24,059 nt of DNA, taken from positions 1 through 24,059 of the IMG/VR virus record IMGVR_UViG_3300032011_000131; one strand, written 5' to 3'. Under the pieces are notes generated by a model. That model had not been told where the DNA came from, searched no databases, and worked only from the letters and a program-made list of their open reading frames with translations. Both the position numbers and the translations under genes were made by a program. Source of the DNA: a virus. How positions within the stretch are numbered: the stretch's first letter is position 1; every line of letters starts with the position of its first letter. Shown here one piece after another: positions 14,646 to 24,059 of the stretch.

Positions 14646-15497
14646 ATGTCAAAATTAAGATATTCTGAAATGTTTTATAGCATTCAGGGTGAAGGAAAGT
14701 TTGTAGGAGTACCAAGTGTATTTTTAAGATTATTTGGTTGTAATTTTGAATGTCCAGGTTTCGGACAGGAAAGAGGTAAACCCCTTCTTCCACGTGATGA
14801 GATGCCTTGGAAAAAAATTGATGTAAGTAAATATAAATCTGTACAAGAATTACCAGTTGTGCATATTGGATGTGATAGTTCGGCTAGTTGGGCTAAAGAA
14901 TATATGCATCTTTCTGTGTTTGAACAAGCTGATGATATAGCTGAAAAATTATTAGAGTTAACTCCCAATAATAGTTGGGATAATGATGGCCAAGATATTC
15001 ATTTAATATTAACTGGCGGTGAACCACTAATGTGGCAAAAACAATTACCAGATTTATTAAATGCTCCAGCTATGAAAGGGCTTAGAAATATTACATTTGA
15101 GACTAATAGTACATTTCCACTCACCGAAGATTTTTATCAATGTTTAATGAGAAAGAGTTCTGTTGATGTAACATGGTCTTGCAGTCCTAAATTAAGTATT
15201 AGTGGAGAGGAACATGAAAAAGCAATTAAACCAGAGAATTGGGATCAATATAGTACAATAGCTCACAGTAATCTTTATTTAAAATTTGTTGTTCAAGATG
15301 AAGAAGATTTAAATGAAATAGCAGATATACAACATCGAGAACAATTAAAATACGATATATATTGCATGCCTTGTGGAGGGACTAGTGAAATGCTAGCTAA
15401 AACAAAATTCAATATTGCTGAAAAAGCTATGGCAAGAGGGTGGAGATATTCGCCCAGATTACATGTAGATTTATTTGGTAATAGGTGGGGCACATGA
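14646..15497 (+). CDS. queE: QueE-like 7-carboxy-7-deazaguanine synthase (radical SAM)
   Basis: Radical SAM enzyme that contracts 6-carboxytetrahydropterin to 7-carboxy-7-deazaguanine. QueE hallmarks are MFYSIQGEGKFVGVPSVFLR at the N-terminus and LTGGEPLMW (GGEP SAM motif). The cluster motif is unusual: C32 and C36 are present, but the third Cys of CX3CX2C is Phe39, and the probable third ligand, C76, comes after a 39-residue insertion in GCDSSASW, the equivalent of the canonical CDTxxSW. I recall the same split in other T4-like phage QueE proteins. 283 residues against about 210-220 for bacterial QueE; the insertion accounts for much of the excess. Together with QueD it supports a phage deazapurine route; QueC and FolE are not in the window. 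Confidence 0.85.
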   Translation: MSKLRYSEMFYSIQGEGKFVGVPSVFLRLFGCNFECPGFGQERGKPLLPRDEMPWKKIDVSKYKSVQELPVVHIGCDSSASWAKEYMHLSVFEQADDIAEKLLELTPNNSWDNDGQDIHLILTGGEPLMWQKQLPDLLNAPAMKGLRNITFETNSTFPLTEDFYQCLMRKSSVDVTWSCSPKLSISGEEHEKAIKPENWDQYSTIAHSNLYLKFVVQDEEDLNEIADIQHREQLKYDIYCMPCGGTSEMLAKTKFNIAEKAMARGWRYSPRLHVDLFGNRWGT

Positions 15498-16672: not shown

Positions 16673-17962
16673 GTGGCTGAGTCAACATTCTCAGGACAAT
16701 ATACAGGTTCTTATGAAGGTTCCTATGAAGGTTCGTATACGGGAGAGTATTCTACCAGTTACGAAGGTTCTTATGGAGGATATGAAGGAATTTACTCTGG
16801 TCAATATGAAGGCTCATATGAAGCAGCATATGCAGGACTATATTCCGGCACATATTCACAAGCATATTCATTAAGAATAGGTGATGTTCATGTAGTAACT
16901 TCAGGTGGCCATGCAACTCTATCATCTGGGGGCACATCATCTCCCTCAACAGTAACAACAAAATCTTCCGGGTCAGTAGAAGCCACAGTCACTTCTGGTG
17001 GAGGAGCATCTATTGTTGGCGGTTTTAATCAACCTGGAAAATCAGTAACAACTCGGATTGCTTCAGACGATACCGTAGTTCATTTAGGTATAGTTGATTT
17101 AGAAAATCTAACAGTCAACTTAAAACCTGCACCTACGGAACCTGGAGAAAGTCCTGTCGGCTTAGGTTCTAATACTCAACCTTTTGGTGATTTATATCTT
17201 CAAGGAAATACTTTAACATTATCTACACGATCACTTGGAATAACAGAAATTGATGGCCACGAATATTTTAATTTTGGTTCTAATACTATTATTGGTGCAA
17301 CACATATTACTGGTGATAAATTACTAGCCTTTGCAGATCAATTAAAAATATCTCAATTAACTGATGTTAATTTAACAGGTATATCAGATGGACAGATGTT
17401 AAAATGGGATGCCGCGGCAGCTAGATGGACACCCGGTTCATATATTGATTCTATAGATATTACCGGACTTTCTATAGAAGAACATGCCGATGTGGCGGCC
17501 TTTACTGCATCTGATAATGATGTATTTCAATTTGATTCAGGATTAGGCAAGTGGACAGCAGTATCTCCCACTGGTGTTCTTGATGGCGCGCTTTTAACAC
17601 CGAATGCAGTGACGGTCAATTCATATATGCAGATGGTCACAACACAAGTTACTGCATCAACAGCCGGCACACATGTGGTCGATCAGTTTTCAATAAATAC
17701 ATATAGATCTGCTAAATATCTAGTACAGGTTGAAGATAATACCTTTGGTGATAAGGGTTACTGGATAGCAGAAGTTTTAATGACTCACAATGATACGGAT
17801 TCCGCATTAACAGTATGGGGTGAAGTCGAGTTGGGGGCAGTTGATATGAGTCCCACAATTGCAACTGATATTACCAATAGTTTATGTAGATTGAAAGTAA
17901 CAACAGGGTCGGATGATCAAACAGTGACTGCATCGCGATTCGCTGTAACCAAAAGTTCATAG
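16673..17962 (+). CDS. Tail-fibre-like structural protein with N-terminal Tyr-x-Gly-x repeat
   Basis: GTG start with SD AGGAG at 16663-16667. The 429-residue product begins with about 57 residues in which Tyr recurs every fourth position (15 Tyr; local units such as YEGSYEGSY and YSGQYEGSY). A Gly/Ser/Thr-rich segment follows, then LGSNTQPFGDLYLQGNTLTL, a pattern I associate with phage fibres and structural proteins. The C-terminal quarter (from about residue 320) looks like a beta sandwich ending KVTTGSDDQTVTASRFAVTKSS. A virion fibre or adhesin role follows from composition and the neighbouring fibre genes. The Tyr array has no known function that I can cite. Confidence 0.7.
   Translation: MAESTFSGQYTGSYEGSYEGSYTGEYSTSYEGSYGGYEGIYSGQYEGSYEAAYAGLYSGTYSQAYSLRIGDVHVVTSGGHATLSSGGTSSPSTVTTKSSGSVEATVTSGGGASIVGGFNQPGKSVTTRIASDDTVVHLGIVDLENLTVNLKPAPTEPGESPVGLGSNTQPFGDLYLQGNTLTLSTRSLGITEIDGHEYFNFGSNTIIGATHITGDKLLAFADQLKISQLTDVNLTGISDGQMLKWDAAAARWTPGSYIDSIDITGLSIEEHADVAAFTASDNDVFQFDSGLGKWTAVSPTGVLDGALLTPNAVTVNSYMQMVTTQVTASTAGTHVVDQFSINTYRSAKYLVQVEDNTFGDKGYWIAEVLMTHNDTDSALTVWGEVELGAVDMSPTIATDITNSLCRLKVTTGSDDQTVTASRFAVTKSS
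16697..16867 (+). repeat. Tyr-x-Gly-x protein repeat array (coding)
   Basis: Encodes residues 9-65 of the protein starting at 16673: 15 tyrosines, at spacing 4 except once at 3 (around GGYEGIY). The consensus is Y-(E/S/T)-G-(S/Q/x). The DNA copies vary at third positions, so the conservation is at the protein level. Confidence 0.85.
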
Positions 17963-19320: not shown

Positions 19321-19863
19321 ATGTCAGCGCAGAAGTTTAAAACTAAAGCAGGGCTACAGGTGGCTACCTCAGCATTATTGGAATGCACCACAACAGCCCA
19401 AACCGTTCTCCCTCAAGCAAATACTACGTATAATATTGGCTCTACTGCTATGACGTATAGTAATATGTACGCCACTACTTTTAATGGTAGAGCAACAGCA
19501 GCAAATTGGTCGGATTTAGCTGAAAAATATCAAGCTGATAAAAAATATGAACAAGGGACTGTGTTAGCAATAGGTGGCACAAAAGAAGTAACTTTGTTTA
19601 AAAAAGATATGCCCCTAGCAGGAATAGTATCAACTAAACCAGGTCTCCAATTAAATTCATCTGATAAAACAAAATCATGGCCTTTTATATGTTTAAAAGG
19701 ACGTGTTCCTTGTAAAATTACAGGTCCCTGCAAAAAAGGAAATTATATTGTGGCTCATGATAATGGTACAGGGAAAGCCCGTGCAACTGTAACTGATGCA
19801 CATCAATTAATAGGCATAGCCCTAGCAGATAGCGATGGAGAAACTGTTGAAGTGAAAGTATAA
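19321..19863 (+). CDS. Fibre-associated protein with C-terminal adhesin-type beta domain
   Basis: 180 residues. It begins MSAQKFKTKAGLQVATSALL, matching the preceding gene's start, which suggests a shared attachment segment. From about residue 62, WSDLAEKYQADKKYEQGTVL, then VSTKPGLQLN and LIGIALADSDGETVEVKV, resembles a C-terminal domain of phage fibres and appendages (peptidase G2 or chaperone-like 'DLAE-Y' domain), with a Gly/Lys core (GRVPCKITGPCKKGNYIVAH). The ATG lies 4 bases after the previous stop, so translation is probably coupled. I regard it as a fibre tip or appendage protein. Confidence 0.65.
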   Translation: MSAQKFKTKAGLQVATSALLECTTTAQTVLPQANTTYNIGSTAMTYSNMYATTFNGRATAANWSDLAEKYQADKKYEQGTVLAIGGTKEVTLFKKDMPLAGIVSTKPGLQLNSSDKTKSWPFICLKGRVPCKITGPCKKGNYIVAHDNGTGKARATVTDAHQLIGIALADSDGETVEVKV

Positions 19864-19864
19864 C

Positions 19865-20392
19865 ATGGCGCAAGTGAATGATATACCTACCATTTTTAAT
19901 GAAAATAGAGGATCATGTTATAGAAAAATTTCTGATGCTCCATGGTGGTCACATTTAGATTTTGATAGCGAAGAAGATGAAGACTTAATGTTTATTGAAA
20001 TCTGGTCTTCTGTGGTTTCCAATGAGCATTTTAAAGTATATAGAATAATAGATGCATCTGCTATAGATGATACCGATCCAGATAAAGAACGTATTCAAAA
20101 AGAATTTAAAGAGCCGGGTCCAGATTTTGTTCATCCAAGTGTTTACTGCAGAGGAAGAATATTAAATGATTTTGAGGATTTGGCCGCAAAATATGGCATC
20201 GATACATTTGAAACTTATATTAAAGATTTATATAATAATTATCCTACCATTGAAAATGAATCAACCATAGAATATATTACAAGAAATAATCAAAATACTC
20301 AGGTTTTCTTTCTTAGTCATAAATGGAAACTTATAGCGGAATTGTTTAGTTCAATTCATAATTATTTTGAAGATCGAGGTGTAATATTATGA
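19865..20392 (+). CDS. Hypothetical protein, 175 aa, acidic
   Basis: Begins one base after the previous stop and overlaps the next gene by ATGA. The product is acidic, with Trp/Phe-rich helices (MFIEIWSSVVSNEHFKVYRI, WKLIAELFSSIHNYFEDRG) and no motif I can name. No signal peptide or membrane segment. It is the first of three unknown genes between the fibre genes and the cysteine-repeat/radical SAM genes. The overlaps place it in the same transcription unit, so it may be a chaperone, assembly factor or virion component. Confidence 0.75.
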   Translation: MAQVNDIPTIFNENRGSCYRKISDAPWWSHLDFDSEEDEDLMFIEIWSSVVSNEHFKVYRIIDASAIDDTDPDKERIQKEFKEPGPDFVHPSVYCRGRILNDFEDLAAKYGIDTFETYIKDLYNNYPTIENESTIEYITRNNQNTQVFFLSHKWKLIAELFSSIHNYFEDRGVIL

Positions 20393-20976
20393 CTCAAGTT
20401 GAGAGAATGAAAATATTTAAAAAAGCCTGGAAAGAATCAATTGTAACTTCAGTTTATCCTGAACATCCAGAAGGGGCTGCAATAGGTAATGCGGCATTTT
20501 TATTTTCTATTTCTAAGCAATTATTCCCTGATAATAATTTAGCCCATCAAATTAATCTTGCAAATTTAGAAAGACACCTTGGTGATATAAGATCAATTAG
20601 ACATGATATGATACATTTAATAGGTCAACAAATATATTATTTCACAGAGGCAAACGATATTAAAGAATGTGAAGCTGGTTCAACTTTTTTCTATATGCAG
20701 GGTGAGAATTCAAGATTACTTAAAAAAACTGGTTTGAGACTTAATACTGGTATACATTTAGGAGATGGTTATTGGCTTGAAAATTCAATGGGCAGCTCAT
20801 TTACTTGGGATAAATATAAATATGATAATGAATTTGAGCCAAGATTAATTTTCGGTGGAAGATTCAACTATAATCCTACGGTACATGTTGATAATGTTTA
20901 TTCTAGGCCAAATAATTTAGGAGATAATAATGATGAAGTTGTGTGGCGAGATTTTTGGGATGGCATATGTCCGTAG
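20389..20976 (+). CDS. Hypothetical protein, 195 aa
   Basis: Coupled to the preceding gene by ATGA. The first half is helical (MTQVERMKIFKKAWKESIVT, then ANLERHLGDIRSIRHDMIH). The second half is richer in Gly/Asn/Trp and aromatic residues (LRLNTGIHLGDGYWLENSMG), with an Asp/Asn-rich end. Two His occur in HDMIH. No family is recognised. Its end overlaps the following gene by 10 bases. Location in the late structural operon favours a virion-related or assembly role. Confidence 0.75.
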   Translation: MTQVERMKIFKKAWKESIVTSVYPEHPEGAAIGNAAFLFSISKQLFPDNNLAHQINLANLERHLGDIRSIRHDMIHLIGQQIYYFTEANDIKECEAGSTFFYMQGENSRLLKKTGLRLNTGIHLGDGYWLENSMGSSFTWDKYKYDNEFEPRLIFGGRFNYNPTVHVDNVYSRPNNLGDNNDEVVWRDFWDGICP

Positions 20977-21350
20977 ATCCTAATAATCCTCTAGAAATAA
21001 TAGTAGATTTAAGTATATCGGATAATGATTTTGTCATTGTAAGTGATGTTGAACCTGTTCCTGATTTGTCGTTTTTTGATCAAATTAGAGTCTTTACTGA
21101 TCACTTGACTGGTTGGGTAGAACCTAAATCGGATAATTCACATAAATTAGATTTAAAATATACGGCGAATAATGATTCAATTCCAAAATATGTATCTTGC
21201 GGTGGACAATGGGCTGAAACACAATGTTGGCATTTTGATTTTGATCCTTTAATATATAATGAAGTACTAAATATATTAAGTGATAAAAGTTTGACTTACC
21301 TAGAAATAGGTAATAATCCCGCACATGCAATTGTAATATCTGAGGAGTGA
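20967..21350 (+). CDS. Hypothetical protein, 127 aa
   Basis: I chose the ATG at 20967 because GGGA at 20957-20960 is a correctly spaced SD. The GTG at 20943 in the same frame has no SD and would deepen the overlap with the previous gene. The product starts MSVDPNNPLEIIVDLSISDN and has a central Trp/Cys/His segment (SCGGQWAETQCWHFDFDP) with two cysteines. No family is recognised. It ends one base before the ATG of the cysteine-repeat protein, so it is likely co-translated with it. Confidence 0.7.
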   Translation: MSVDPNNPLEIIVDLSISDNDFVIVSDVEPVPDLSFFDQIRVFTDHLTGWVEPKSDNSHKLDLKYTANNDSIPKYVSCGGQWAETQCWHFDFDPLIYNEVLNILSDKSLTYLEIGNNPAHAIVISEE

Positions 21351-21351
21351 T

Positions 21352-21987
21352 ATGAGTGGACCTTTAGCATGTCCTACAAATTTGACAAATCTACCTGCTC
21401 AAGCCGGCTCGCTGGTTGAGGAGACAGATTTTACTACAATGAGAGATTCTATCAATGCTGAATTGACAAGAAGATCTATAAGTAATTCCTCATGGACTGG
21501 CTATTCTGATCCTGTTCTTGCTGCATTATTTAATGAAATGAGAACATCCATTGCTAATAATTTGGGTGGTACAACTCCTACTACTAGTGTCGCAATTCAA
21601 GCAGCCGTTTCTGCCACTGATCAGATTTTGGCATCACAGATAGAAACACTTGAATCCAATCTTGATGAATGGAAAGTTTTATGTATTTGTAACTGTAATT
21701 TTTGTCCCTGTAATTGTGATTTTTGTCCGTGCAATTGTGACTTCTGTCCTTGTAACTGCGACTTCTGTCCTTGCAACTGCGACTTCTGTCCTTGTAACTG
21801 TAATTTTTGTCCCTGTAACTGTAACTTCTGCCCGTGCAATTGTAATTTTTGTCCCTGTAACTGTAACTTCTGTCCGTGTAATTGTAATTTCTGTCCATGT
21901 AATTGTAATTTCTGTCCGTGCAACTGTAACTTCTGTCCATGTAACTGTAACTTCTGTCCGTGTAATTGTAACTTCGGGCCCAAATAG
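21352..21987 (+). CDS. Cysteine heptad-repeat protein, candidate radical SAM substrate
   Basis: 211 residues in two parts. Residues 1-112 form an ordinary, probably helical domain (DFTTMRDSINAELTRRSISN; ATDQILASQIETLESNLDEW), reminiscent of N-terminal parts of phage structural proteins. Residues 113-210 are exactly 14 tandem heptads: CNCNFCP once, CNCDFCP four times, CNCNFCP eight times, and a last CNCNFGP followed by K. That gives 41 Cys in 98 residues. It is followed 9 bases later by a SPASM radical SAM gene. The layout (N-terminal domain as possible recognition or leader part, repetitive Cys core, adjacent maturase) matches a RiPP-type precursor. Alternatively it is a virion protein with a metal-binding or disulfide-rich stalk. 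I recall CxCxx-type repeats in marine phage structural proteins but cannot verify this. The modification is inference. Confidence 0.9.
   Translation: MSGPLACPTNLTNLPAQAGSLVEETDFTTMRDSINAELTRRSISNSSWTGYSDPVLAALFNEMRTSIANNLGGTTPTTSVAIQAAVSATDQILASQIETLESNLDEWKVLCICNCNFCPCNCDFCPCNCDFCPCNCDFCPCNCDFCPCNCNFCPCNCNFCPCNCNFCPCNCNFCPCNCNFCPCNCNFCPCNCNFCPCNCNFCPCNCNFGPK
21688..21981 (+). repeat. Tandem 21-base repeat encoding CNC(N/D)FCP, 14 units
   Basis: Fourteen in-frame 21-base units with no interruption. Units vary mainly at synonymous third positions (TGT/TGC, AAC/AAT, TTT/TTC, all four CCN), apart from the Asp block in units 2-5 and Gly for Cys in unit 14. From unit 6 to 13 the Pro codon alternates (CCC, CCG, CCC, CCG, CCA, CCG, CCA, CCG), a higher-order 42-base pattern. 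Confidence 0.95.
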
Positions 21988-21996
21988 AGAAATAAT

Positions 21997-23292
21997 ATGA
22001 CTCAATCACATAATTTAGAAACTGTAGCTCCGAATCAGATGTATACTCCACCACCTGGTGGATGGACTCCCCCATCACAGCAACCTGGAGCAAAACGAAA
22101 TAACGGGCAGATGCCCGGATTTAATCCAATGCAGAGTTTTAATTTCGATGTAAACGTAACGAGTGAATGTAATCTTGCTTGTACTTACTGTTCGGAAGGA
22201 GAATCTTGTGGTCTTTCTTCTGCTTTTCAAGAACCAACCGAAATGACCCCCAAGCAAGTGGTCGAGGCAGTAAGAACTTTAGACTATAACAAATACAAAG
22301 ATGTGAATGTTTATTGGTGGGGAGGTGAACCATTTGCCAATTTCCATTTTACAAGCACAGCCATGAAGTTATTGAAAGATGACAAAAAAGTTAATTTCAT
22401 GTATTATACAAATGGGACTTATCTGAAAAAATATAAAAAACAACTTAGAGATATTAGAGATATGCTCGGTAAAAGACACGATTACCCTCATCAAGATAGG
22501 TTACATATACAAATTTCTTTTGATGGGGAACCTATCAATACAAAAGAAAGAAGAACAAAAAAGGGCGAAAGCAAAAAATTATCGGCATCTGTTCTTAAAA
22601 TATATGATGAACTAAAACAAGATGGATTTTCTGTGGGAATGAAACCTACTATTTCATCCAGGAATTTTAAATATCTCTTTGAAGTTTGGAAATGGCATTA
22701 TGACCGTGGAGAACATTATGGACCCACTCCTGATACTCATAGTGTGAATCCAGATAGACCAGAAGGGGCAGTTGAATCAGAAGAATTTGCTCAACATATG
22801 AAAGACTTGAGAGTTAACTTAATGAAGATTGTTAAATATTGTATAGATAACAATATAGAATTAGCACAATCTTTCAGATGGTTTAAGAGAGAAAAACAAA
22901 ATTGTTCAGCAGGAATAAATTATCTATCATTGGATCTTGATGGTAAAACTTACCCATGTCATGGTTGCATGTATCGACAAAGGGAAGATCATCATAGAGG
23001 GGATATTAAATCTAATACTTTACAAAAACTTGTTGATGAAACAACTGCAACATATCAATCATATTTAAATGATTTTAGAACAGATGGCACCTTAGCATGT
23101 AATAGTTGTACTGCAGATTTTTGTTTGAAATGCCCAGCAGGTTCTTTCGATGCATCAGATACAAAATATCCTGATAAAACATTAGGGCAAAAATGGCAAG
23201 ATCATACAGCAAATCATCAATTGTGCACTGTATGGAAAACTTTAGAACCAGTATCTAAAGCATATCGACAATTAACAGGTCATAGATTATGA
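21997..23292 (+). CDS. Radical SAM/SPASM peptide-modifying enzyme
   Basis: A 431-residue enzyme. Residues 1-45 are Pro/Gln/Gly-rich (YTPPPGGWTPPSQQPG), an unusual extension before the radical SAM barrel. The SAM cluster motif is C58, C62, C65 (ECNLACTYC); WWGGEP is the SAM-binding motif near residue 109, and HIQISFDGEP a later barrel strand. The C-terminal SPASM region has C303, then G316-x4-C321, C324, then C368-x2-C371-x4-C376-x2-C379, and C410: ligands for two auxiliary Fe-S clusters, with slightly shorter spacing than the usual CX2CX5CX3C. This family makes thioethers, C-C bonds, epimers or formylglycine in peptides and proteins. The cysteine-repeat protein just upstream is the obvious candidate substrate. 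It overlaps the next gene by ATGA. Confidence 0.93.
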   Translation: MTQSHNLETVAPNQMYTPPPGGWTPPSQQPGAKRNNGQMPGFNPMQSFNFDVNVTSECNLACTYCSEGESCGLSSAFQEPTEMTPKQVVEAVRTLDYNKYKDVNVYWWGGEPFANFHFTSTAMKLLKDDKKVNFMYYTNGTYLKKYKKQLRDIRDMLGKRHDYPHQDRLHIQISFDGEPINTKERRTKKGESKKLSASVLKIYDELKQDGFSVGMKPTISSRNFKYLFEVWKWHYDRGEHYGPTPDTHSVNPDRPEGAVESEEFAQHMKDLRVNLMKIVKYCIDNNIELAQSFRWFKREKQNCSAGINYLSLDLDGKTYPCHGCMYRQREDHHRGDIKSNTLQKLVDETTATYQSYLNDFRTDGTLACNSCTADFCLKCPAGSFDASDTKYPDKTLGQKWQDHTANHQLCTVWKTLEPVSKAYRQLTGHRL

Positions 23293-23663
23293 TCATAGGA
23301 GATGCGACGAATTGTAAAATAGCATCAGAAAAGGGATGTCAAGGATGTATTCATAGTGATGAAGATAAAATAGAATATGGAAATTGTCGTGAAGATGATT
23401 TATCATTTGATGAAATTTTTATAAACTTTAATTTCAAAGATCAATTATCATCACATCATAAAAAAATATCTTCTTCAGAAGTACAACACCAAATATATGA
23501 AGCATATGAAGAAAAAAATATGTATAAATTGAGAGTCGCACTTAAACATTATTTAAAAAATAAAGAAAAATATATTGAAGAAAGATCAATGTCGGAAAAA
23601 GAATTTTACGAAAAATATAATTACCATGTTAGGAATAATAACTTATGCCTGAATACCATTTAG
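23289..23663 (+). CDS. Small four-cysteine protein between the two radical SAM genes, 124 aa
   Basis: Translationally coupled to the SPASM enzyme (ATGA). The N-terminal 33 residues hold C9, C17, C20 and C33 (pattern CX7CX2CX12C, in the segment NCKIASEKGCQGCIHSDEDK), a plausible Zn or Fe-S site. The remainder is charged and helical (YEAYEEKNMYKLRVALKHYL, KNKEKYIEER), with a fifth Cys near the end. No homology to known RiPP recognition elements is evident by eye. Context suggests an accessory or partner of the radical enzymes, such as a chaperone, electron carrier or second substrate. Function is unknown. Confidence 0.75.
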   Translation: MIIGDATNCKIASEKGCQGCIHSDEDKIEYGNCREDDLSFDEIFINFNFKDQLSSHHKKISSSEVQHQIYEAYEEKNMYKLRVALKHYLKNKEKYIEERSMSEKEFYEKYNYHVRNNNLCLNTI

Positions 23664-24059
23664 AAGTATCTGTAACAGAAAAATGTAATCTTGGTTGTCC
23701 TTATTGTTATATTGCAAATCAAGACAAATTTATGACTACTGAAATTTTCGATAAAGCATGGCCTGAATTTATAAAGTTAGTAGATAGATCACATGCTGAT
23801 GCCAGAGGTAAATTTCACCTAACTTTTTTTGGCGGGGAACCTCTTTTAAATATGCCTGTAATTAAACATGCTACGAAAAAATGTAGATCAGGTGAATATG
23901 CTGAAAGACTTCATGCATTATCAATTATATCAAATATGACATTAATTAATGATGAGATTGCTGACTGGCTTGAAGAAAATCGAGTAGGGATTAGTTGGAG
24001 TTTTGATGGAATATCATCAAATGAATCCAGACCTGTTATTAAAAACATGGGAGAAAATA
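23645..24059 (+). CDS. Second radical SAM enzyme (3' truncated by window)
   Basis: ATG at 23645, overlapping the preceding gene by 19 bases, open to the window end (138 codons visible). Cluster motif C14-x3-C18-x2-C21 (EKCNLGCPYCY), FFGGEPLLN near residue 62 and ISWSFDG near 125 are the standard barrel motifs of peptide-modifying and anSME-like radical SAM proteins. The cluster motif follows almost immediately after the start, so there is no N-terminal extension, unlike the first enzyme. Whether it has a SPASM or twitch C-terminus lies outside the window. It is the third radical SAM gene here, after queE and the SPASM enzyme. Confidence 0.9.
   Translation, partial: MPEYHLEVSVTEKCNLGCPYCYIANQDKFMTTEIFDKAWPEFIKLVDRSHADARGKFHLTFFGGEPLLNMPVIKHATKKCRSGEYAERLHALSIISNMTLINDEIADWLEENRVGISWSFDGISSNESRPVIKNMGEN

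Follow-up and report, generated by a model that had tools for sequence, protein, structure and literature searches.

The window analyzed here, a single stretch of 24,059 nucleotides, holds a T4-like run of structural and replication genes, in which those for portal, head protease, scaffold, major head protein, and tail tube are followed by a helicase, SbcC/SbcD, a QueE-type radical-SAM gene, and then fiber-type genes. At its right end lies a cassette (Table 1) comprising a gene for a protein with a C-terminal Cys array, a radical-SAM/SPASM enzyme (enzyme A), a small four-Cys protein, and a second radical-SAM/SPASM enzyme (enzyme B). The gap between the array gene and the ATG of enzyme A is 9 bases. 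In relatives, a third radical-SAM gene (enzyme C) lies past the position matching the window end. In the closest relative, L013, enzyme A is 93% identical to that of the window, the three small genes preceding the array gene are kept with the cassette at 56 to 64% identity (function unknown), and a homolog of the four-Cys gene, shortened to 71 amino acids, occupies the equivalent position. The array protein has 211 residues in the window and 197 in L013, and the difference of 14 residues equals two heptads. This gene set is shown. An initial annotation had claimed a 14-heptad Cys repeat protein, a gap of 9 bases before a SPASM radical-SAM gene, and then a coupled four-Cys gene and a second radical-SAM gene. 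The last two claims held, and the first holds if the degenerate fourteenth unit is counted, 13 being perfect. Its count of two enzymes was an understatement, as the usual set is three and enzyme C was missed past the window end.

Table 1. Positions of the cassette and of other features mentioned in the text. Positions without an L number are those of the window.
Feature	Position	Strand	Remarks
QueE-like radical-SAM gene	14646-15494		PHROG 2076, 1.9e-58
Fiber-type protein	16673-17962		First ~65 residues a Tyr-Gly-rich repeat (GSYEGSYEG...)
Tail-fiber-type protein	19321..19863	+	PHROG 19602 tail fiber, 2.2e-18; context upstream of cassette
Three small genes (175, 195, 135 aa)	19865..21350	+	Between fiber gene and array gene
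Array gene, 211 aa	21352-21987	+	N-terminal part plus Cys array
N-terminal part, residues 1-112	21352..21687	+	Helical; G-x-I-x-A-x-x-x-N-x-L type motifs common to relatives
Cys array, from residue 113	21688..21984	+	13 CNC[ND]FCP units plus degenerate fourteenth, CNCNFGP; proposed radical-SAM substrate
Enzyme A, radical-SAM/SPASM, 431 aa	21997..23292	+	Pfam Radical_SAM and SPASM
Small four-Cys protein, 124 aa	23289..23663	+	Overlaps both A and B; role unknown
Enzyme B, radical-SAM/SPASM, N-terminal 138 residues	23645..24059	+	ORF to 24058, truncated by window end
Full-length enzyme B relative	L013:9492-10718
Truncated array gene	L073:10662-10877
B, A, and array protein	L064:461-5178		Contig binned as Thermoplasmata
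Short Cys-Asn array protein and SPASM enzyme	L067:1596-3339		Clostridium rectalis contig
Divergent arrays	L092:10566-11255; L211:9142-9645		CQCNYC; CHSNCHSN
Array protein with apparent Hint/intein-type domain	L205:9904-10566		Resemblance judged by eye
Other Cys-repeat proteins at single-enzyme loci	L106:6126-6701; L120:7368-7931; L130:1915-2311; L134:5059-7938; L142:6719-7816; L143:5783-7225; L126:6219-7928

Two further genes of the window were noted outside the cassette. Relatives of the QueE-like gene in L224 and L225 are 95 to 96% identical to it and have surroundings in common with the window, and the Tyr-Gly-rich repeat that opens one fiber-type protein of the window is missing from the syntenic genes of these two contigs.

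The N-terminal part of the window array protein is likely to be a virion-attachment or fiber part. Codon differences between the repeat units of the array that follows it comprised 230 synonymous and 36 nonsynonymous changes, and all 36 nonsynonymous differences were N/D at heptad position 4, indicating that the peptide repeat stays constant while the DNA drifts. The repeat is not a low-complexity artifact. Across 274 heptads from the window and its relatives, position 2 was N/D in 95%, position 4 was N/D in nearly all, and position 5 was Y/F in 95%. A Pfam search with the window array protein returned no match of any kind, Peptidase_S74 included. AlphaFold placed helices at residues 24-40, 57-71, and 94-108 (pLDDT about 70 to 77), with a pLDDT of 58 for the whole protein; the array protein of L061, which carries an S74 domain, was modeled at a pLDDT of 72 with its array below 50, and neither model gave a reliable array fold. 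A viral fold search supported S74 only ("intramolecular chaperone auto-processing"), and no match at E 0.001 was obtained in a PDB search with the L061 model or a viral search with the window model. PDB matches of the array to the C-terminal heptads of RNA polymerase II (E 1e-17) were rejected as a compositional artifact of two seven-residue repeats.

Enzyme A matched Pfam Radical_SAM at 3.6e-14 and SPASM at 3e-4, the latter exactly at the cutoff. Its core motif is CNLACTYC, and the seven Cys residues of its SPASM region were invariant in an alignment of 21 relatives. The window fragment of enzyme B gave a Pfam radical-SAM match (4.1e-12), and full-length B relatives, such as that of L013, have a seven-Cys SPASM region that is likewise invariant in the B alignment. 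Enzyme C combines a radical-SAM core with a C-terminal four-Cys motif. For all three enzymes, the best NCBIfam family was the PapB ranthipeptide maturase (NF047865), with every score below the curated cutoff of 340 bits (79.7 for window A; 142.5 for B and 79.9 for C at best among those scanned). Maturases of the SPASM type with a variety of chemistries, cyclophane-forming enzymes included, also scored on A, B, and C, and because no enzyme reached any curated maturase cutoff, family membership cannot give the chemistry. Among solved structures, the one nearest in sequence to A and B was PDB 5wgg, which we take to be CteB. With PapB as the best family, at scores well under the cutoff, a thioether is the likeliest chemistry for the three enzymes, but this is inferred. 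The Cys-Asn/Asp or Cys-Phe linkages suggested in the initial annotation remain candidates on the same inferential footing.

The linkage of arrays and enzymes was examined from both sides. A degenerate DNA pattern for the heptad retrieved 10 stretches from IMG/VR, and a broader pattern retrieved 58 stretches on 57 distinct contigs; these stretches, and then the whole records, were analyzed by ORF and HMM. Both A and B were present in 49 of the 57 contig records, L037 being counted among the positives though its A relative was weak (92 bits). In five of the eight exceptions (L006, L011, L019, L031, and L033), the array lies near the contig end, on the side that bears the enzymes in relatives. 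A different SPASM enzyme adjoins the array of L046 (Clostridium rectalis), only C is present in L054, and no enzyme was found in the 43.8 kb of L023, which has a heptad-like array. Enzyme C was found in most heptad contigs, with L043 and L048 lacking it in the sequence available. Many repeat relatives without a radical-SAM neighbor, the outcome that the initial annotation had set as a check on its idea, were thus not what we saw, and its reading of a protein modification system is supported.

In the reverse direction, profile-guided scans were run with A and B, without use of the repeat. A Cys array was found near 59 of 65 nonredundant A loci, some array types being assigned by reading the sequences and not by a fixed pattern. 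Two of the six array-less loci are cut by a contig end, L073 has a truncated array gene, and L090, L181, and L183 are unexplained. The L073 gene stops before the repeat and has a start resembling that of the L041 array gene, reflecting either assembly collapse or true loss. At hexad-type loci (described below), the array gene is typically 0 to 28 bases downstream of the enzyme gene. As controls, we examined loci of two other window proteins. None of 24 loci of the QueE-type radical-SAM protein had a Cys-dense or heptad ORF, indicating that radical-SAM genes in general are not tied to arrays. None of 80 loci of the major head protein had a heptad ORF, and 6 had a Cys-dense ORF, every one on the strand opposite the head gene. 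The count overstates the strength of the head-protein control, because many of its contigs were short.

Gene order varies among lineages while the array-enzyme linkage persists, and the constant partner of the enzymes is the array gene, not any other fiber gene. A single enzyme set can accompany several tandem array proteins with differing N termini (four in L027, three in L036). Co-occurrence extends from phages of Campylobacter to uncultured ones whose enzymes are about 25% identical. The system also occurs outside any single group of marine T4-like phages. The linkage is shown; that the Cys array is the substrate of the enzymes is strongly supported but is an inference. Two further loci were also recorded. 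L064, which has B, A, and an array protein, may be an archaeal virus or a binning error, and the short Cys-Asn array protein of L067 sits beside a single SPASM enzyme near apparent phage tail genes.

Array type matched the enzyme set. A loci with C carried the heptad C-[ND]-C-N-[YF]-C-[TP], while those without C mostly carried a two-Cys hexad (e.g., CICNSD-CSCNNV-CSCHND-CGCNY). When A was clustered at 50% identity, there were 12 heptad and 0 hexad cases with C versus 2 heptad and 11 hexad cases without it (Fisher p 2e-5); clustering at 40% identity gave a p of 0.007. Two of the unclustered heptad loci without a nearby C are those of Campylobacter phages, which have C elsewhere in the genome. 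The match itself is shown, but clustering does not fully remove shared descent from the association. With that caveat, it is possible to infer from the match that the C-x-C-[ND] core is the target of A and B and that the extra aromatic-Cys element is the target of C.

Other repeat types were seen as well. Divergent arrays lie beside A, B, and C relatives in L092 and L211 and may show array and enzymes changing together. In phages with a single, weaker PapB-like radical-SAM gene, other Cys-repeat proteins adjoin it (Table 1), among them (TC)n runs, CxxC arrays, SGGC arrays, and Cys-rich ends of long fiber or collagen-like proteins. The theme of a Cys repeat with a radical-SAM enzyme could possibly extend well beyond the heptad.

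Array proteins range from about 125 to 534 residues, with up to 22 units, fiber-type N-terminal parts, and S74 in many. In 8 of 10 array proteins chosen for testing, a Pfam Peptidase_S74 domain starts at the array end or within a residue of it. Others end with the array or in a short SDxRLK-type remnant. The L012 array protein has a glycine-rich domain, and in L066 and L031 a long collagen-like gene is followed directly by the array gene. The S74 junction is shown, and it lends support to the earlier suggestion of a fiber-associated protein. Location of the array protein in the virion is moderately supported by this junction and by the fiber neighbors, without proteomics, and for the phage of the window it is inferred. 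In L205, the Cys array is followed, where S74 would be, by a region that resembles a Hint/intein-type domain by eye.

Searches of cultured phages led to Campylobacter. The window array protein gave no tblastn match in phage records, with low-complexity masking of the repeat the probable reason, and it was replaced as query by gp140 of Campylobacter phage CP220, with its non-repeat parts unmasked. This protein has six heptads (CDCNYCT/CNCNYCT) and a similar motif ahead of the array. Among 50,697 phage records, tblastn found A in 15, B in 32 (15 from Campylobacter phages, the rest weaker gut-phage matches), and C in 16 (15 from Campylobacter phages), and it found the array protein only in 15 Campylobacter records. 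Each of these 15 either has relatives of all three enzymes or is part of a split genome in which they are present; IBB_35 was deposited as separate contig records, so genes of one phage fall on different records. In CP220, A lies 2.2 kb from the array gene, and the genes for B and C are at other places in the genome. The CP220 paper noted a 21-bp repeat in CPT_0180 and, separately, 11 radical-SAM proteins, proposing metabolic roles without linking the two (PMC2853527); we matched CPT_0180 to gp140 by its annotated repeat and gene order. That study identified 11 virion bands, none of them the array protein (PMC2853527), which is a weak negative.

The cassette resembles PapA/PapB and the ranthipeptides (SCIFF/CteB) in placing a radical-SAM/SPASM enzyme gene beside the gene for a Cys-repeat protein, here the putative substrate, and PapB joins Cys to Asp/Glu at multiple motifs in each chain (PMC9413430). 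Unlike those systems, the putative phage substrate is a fiber-like protein, and there are two or three different enzymes. Judged as a ribosomally synthesized peptide system of the ranthipeptide/sactipeptide kind, the cassette has radical-SAM enzymes with SPASM or auxiliary-cluster Cys and a Cys-rich putative substrate encoded near them, but its array proteins, judged by their length and fiber-type N-terminal parts, do not match the short, leader-bearing precursor, processed and exported, of that kind. QhpD, which acts in quinohemoprotein amine dehydrogenase maturation, is a SPASM enzyme whose substrate is a protein subunit and not a small natural-product peptide. Its family was the second-best curated match for B. 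The QhpD system differs from the cassette in having a bacterial enzyme subunit as substrate, a single maturase, no tandem repeat, and no virus. The endosialidase-type S74 chaperone of other fibers and spikes directly follows the array in many relatives, whereas the window array protein has none, and known S74 fibers are not known to have a radical-SAM partner. CP220, a cultured phage, resembles the window in its heptad type and in having relatives of all three enzymes and differs in that its enzymes are not clustered beside the array gene. Metallothioneins resemble the array in Cys spacing only.

We consider it likely (probability about 0.72) that this is a phage-encoded maturation cassette whose radical-SAM enzymes cross-link the C-terminal Cys array of a tail-fiber or adhesin protein, probably through Cys thioethers. 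This reading is inferred from genomes and no chemistry is shown: no mass, structure, or mutant data stand behind it, and the array models are of low confidence. In the proposed scheme, the array protein would be made as a fiber part with a C-terminal tandem Cys-Asn repeat, on which A, B, and usually C would act inside the infected cell. A and B would serve both main array types, with C needed for the heptad only. The likeliest product would be thioethers joining Cys sulfur to carbons of neighboring residues (Asn/Asp or aromatic). The purpose, also inferred, may be a rigid, reduction-proof tip able to form in the reducing cytoplasm, where disulfides form poorly. In many relatives, the S74 chaperone after the array would trimerize the fiber and remove itself by cleavage, so that the mature protein would end in or close to the array.

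An unlikely alternative keeps the array as substrate but has the enzymes act without making Cys thioethers, for instance by epimerization, by forming a cyclophane that joins the aromatic residue to a neighbor, or by changes at the Asn/Asp beta carbons, with the Cys residues serving as thiols, disulfides, or metal ligands. The range of SPASM maturases scoring on the enzymes favors it, as do positions 2 and 4 (Asn/Asp) and position 5 (Tyr/Phe), which are conserved nearly as well as the Cys residues. Against it, A, B, and C all score best with a curated family that links Cys to Asp, and every array type is defined by its Cys positions, also beside more distant enzymes. We regard as less likely still a metallothionein-like or iron-sulfur-binding array linked to radical-SAM genes for some other reason, such as action on another fiber protein. 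The C-x-C and C-x-x-C spacing is metallothionein-like and Cys content is very high; however, the enzyme set predicts array type, the linkage outlasts changes in gene order, and the array gene is the constant partner. To our knowledge, no radical-SAM enzyme loads metals into such a repeat.

We consider it very unlikely that the array is an ordinary disulfide-bonded, Cys-rich fiber tip beside radical-SAM genes that serve accessory metabolism and share a variable locus with it. Fiber loci are indeed variable and gather accessory genes, and the window has a QueE-type radical-SAM gene unrelated to the array, but the QueE loci lacked arrays and the co-occurrence of arrays with the enzymes reaches across phages, Campylobacter and uncultured, whose enzymes are about 25% identical.

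Within the cross-linking reading, we lean modestly toward a bolder version, in which a broad range of tailed viruses use a combinatorial radical-SAM set, matched to repeat type, to cross-link the tips of their own receptor-binding fibers; the tip would then be a covalent solenoid or cage whose geometry is unknown. That radical-SAM enzymes can act on Cys repeats is established; a viral fiber substrate with matched enzyme sets appears to be new. We know of no earlier case of radical-SAM maturation of a virion structural protein, and our literature search, outside which most subscription papers and preprints fell, turned up no published link between phage radical-SAM genes and fiber Cys repeats. 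The cross-linking idea is directly testable in cultured phages.

If the reading is correct, part of the attachment apparatus of a virus is made by radical chemistry. The unusually many radical-SAM genes of Campylobacter group II phages, ascribed to host metabolism by those who discovered them, would then be explained at least in part. The reading would also define a family of cross-linked repeats, genetically encoded and tunable in length, and these natural fibers with matched enzyme sets would allow the division of one repeat between two enzymes to be compared with its division among three.
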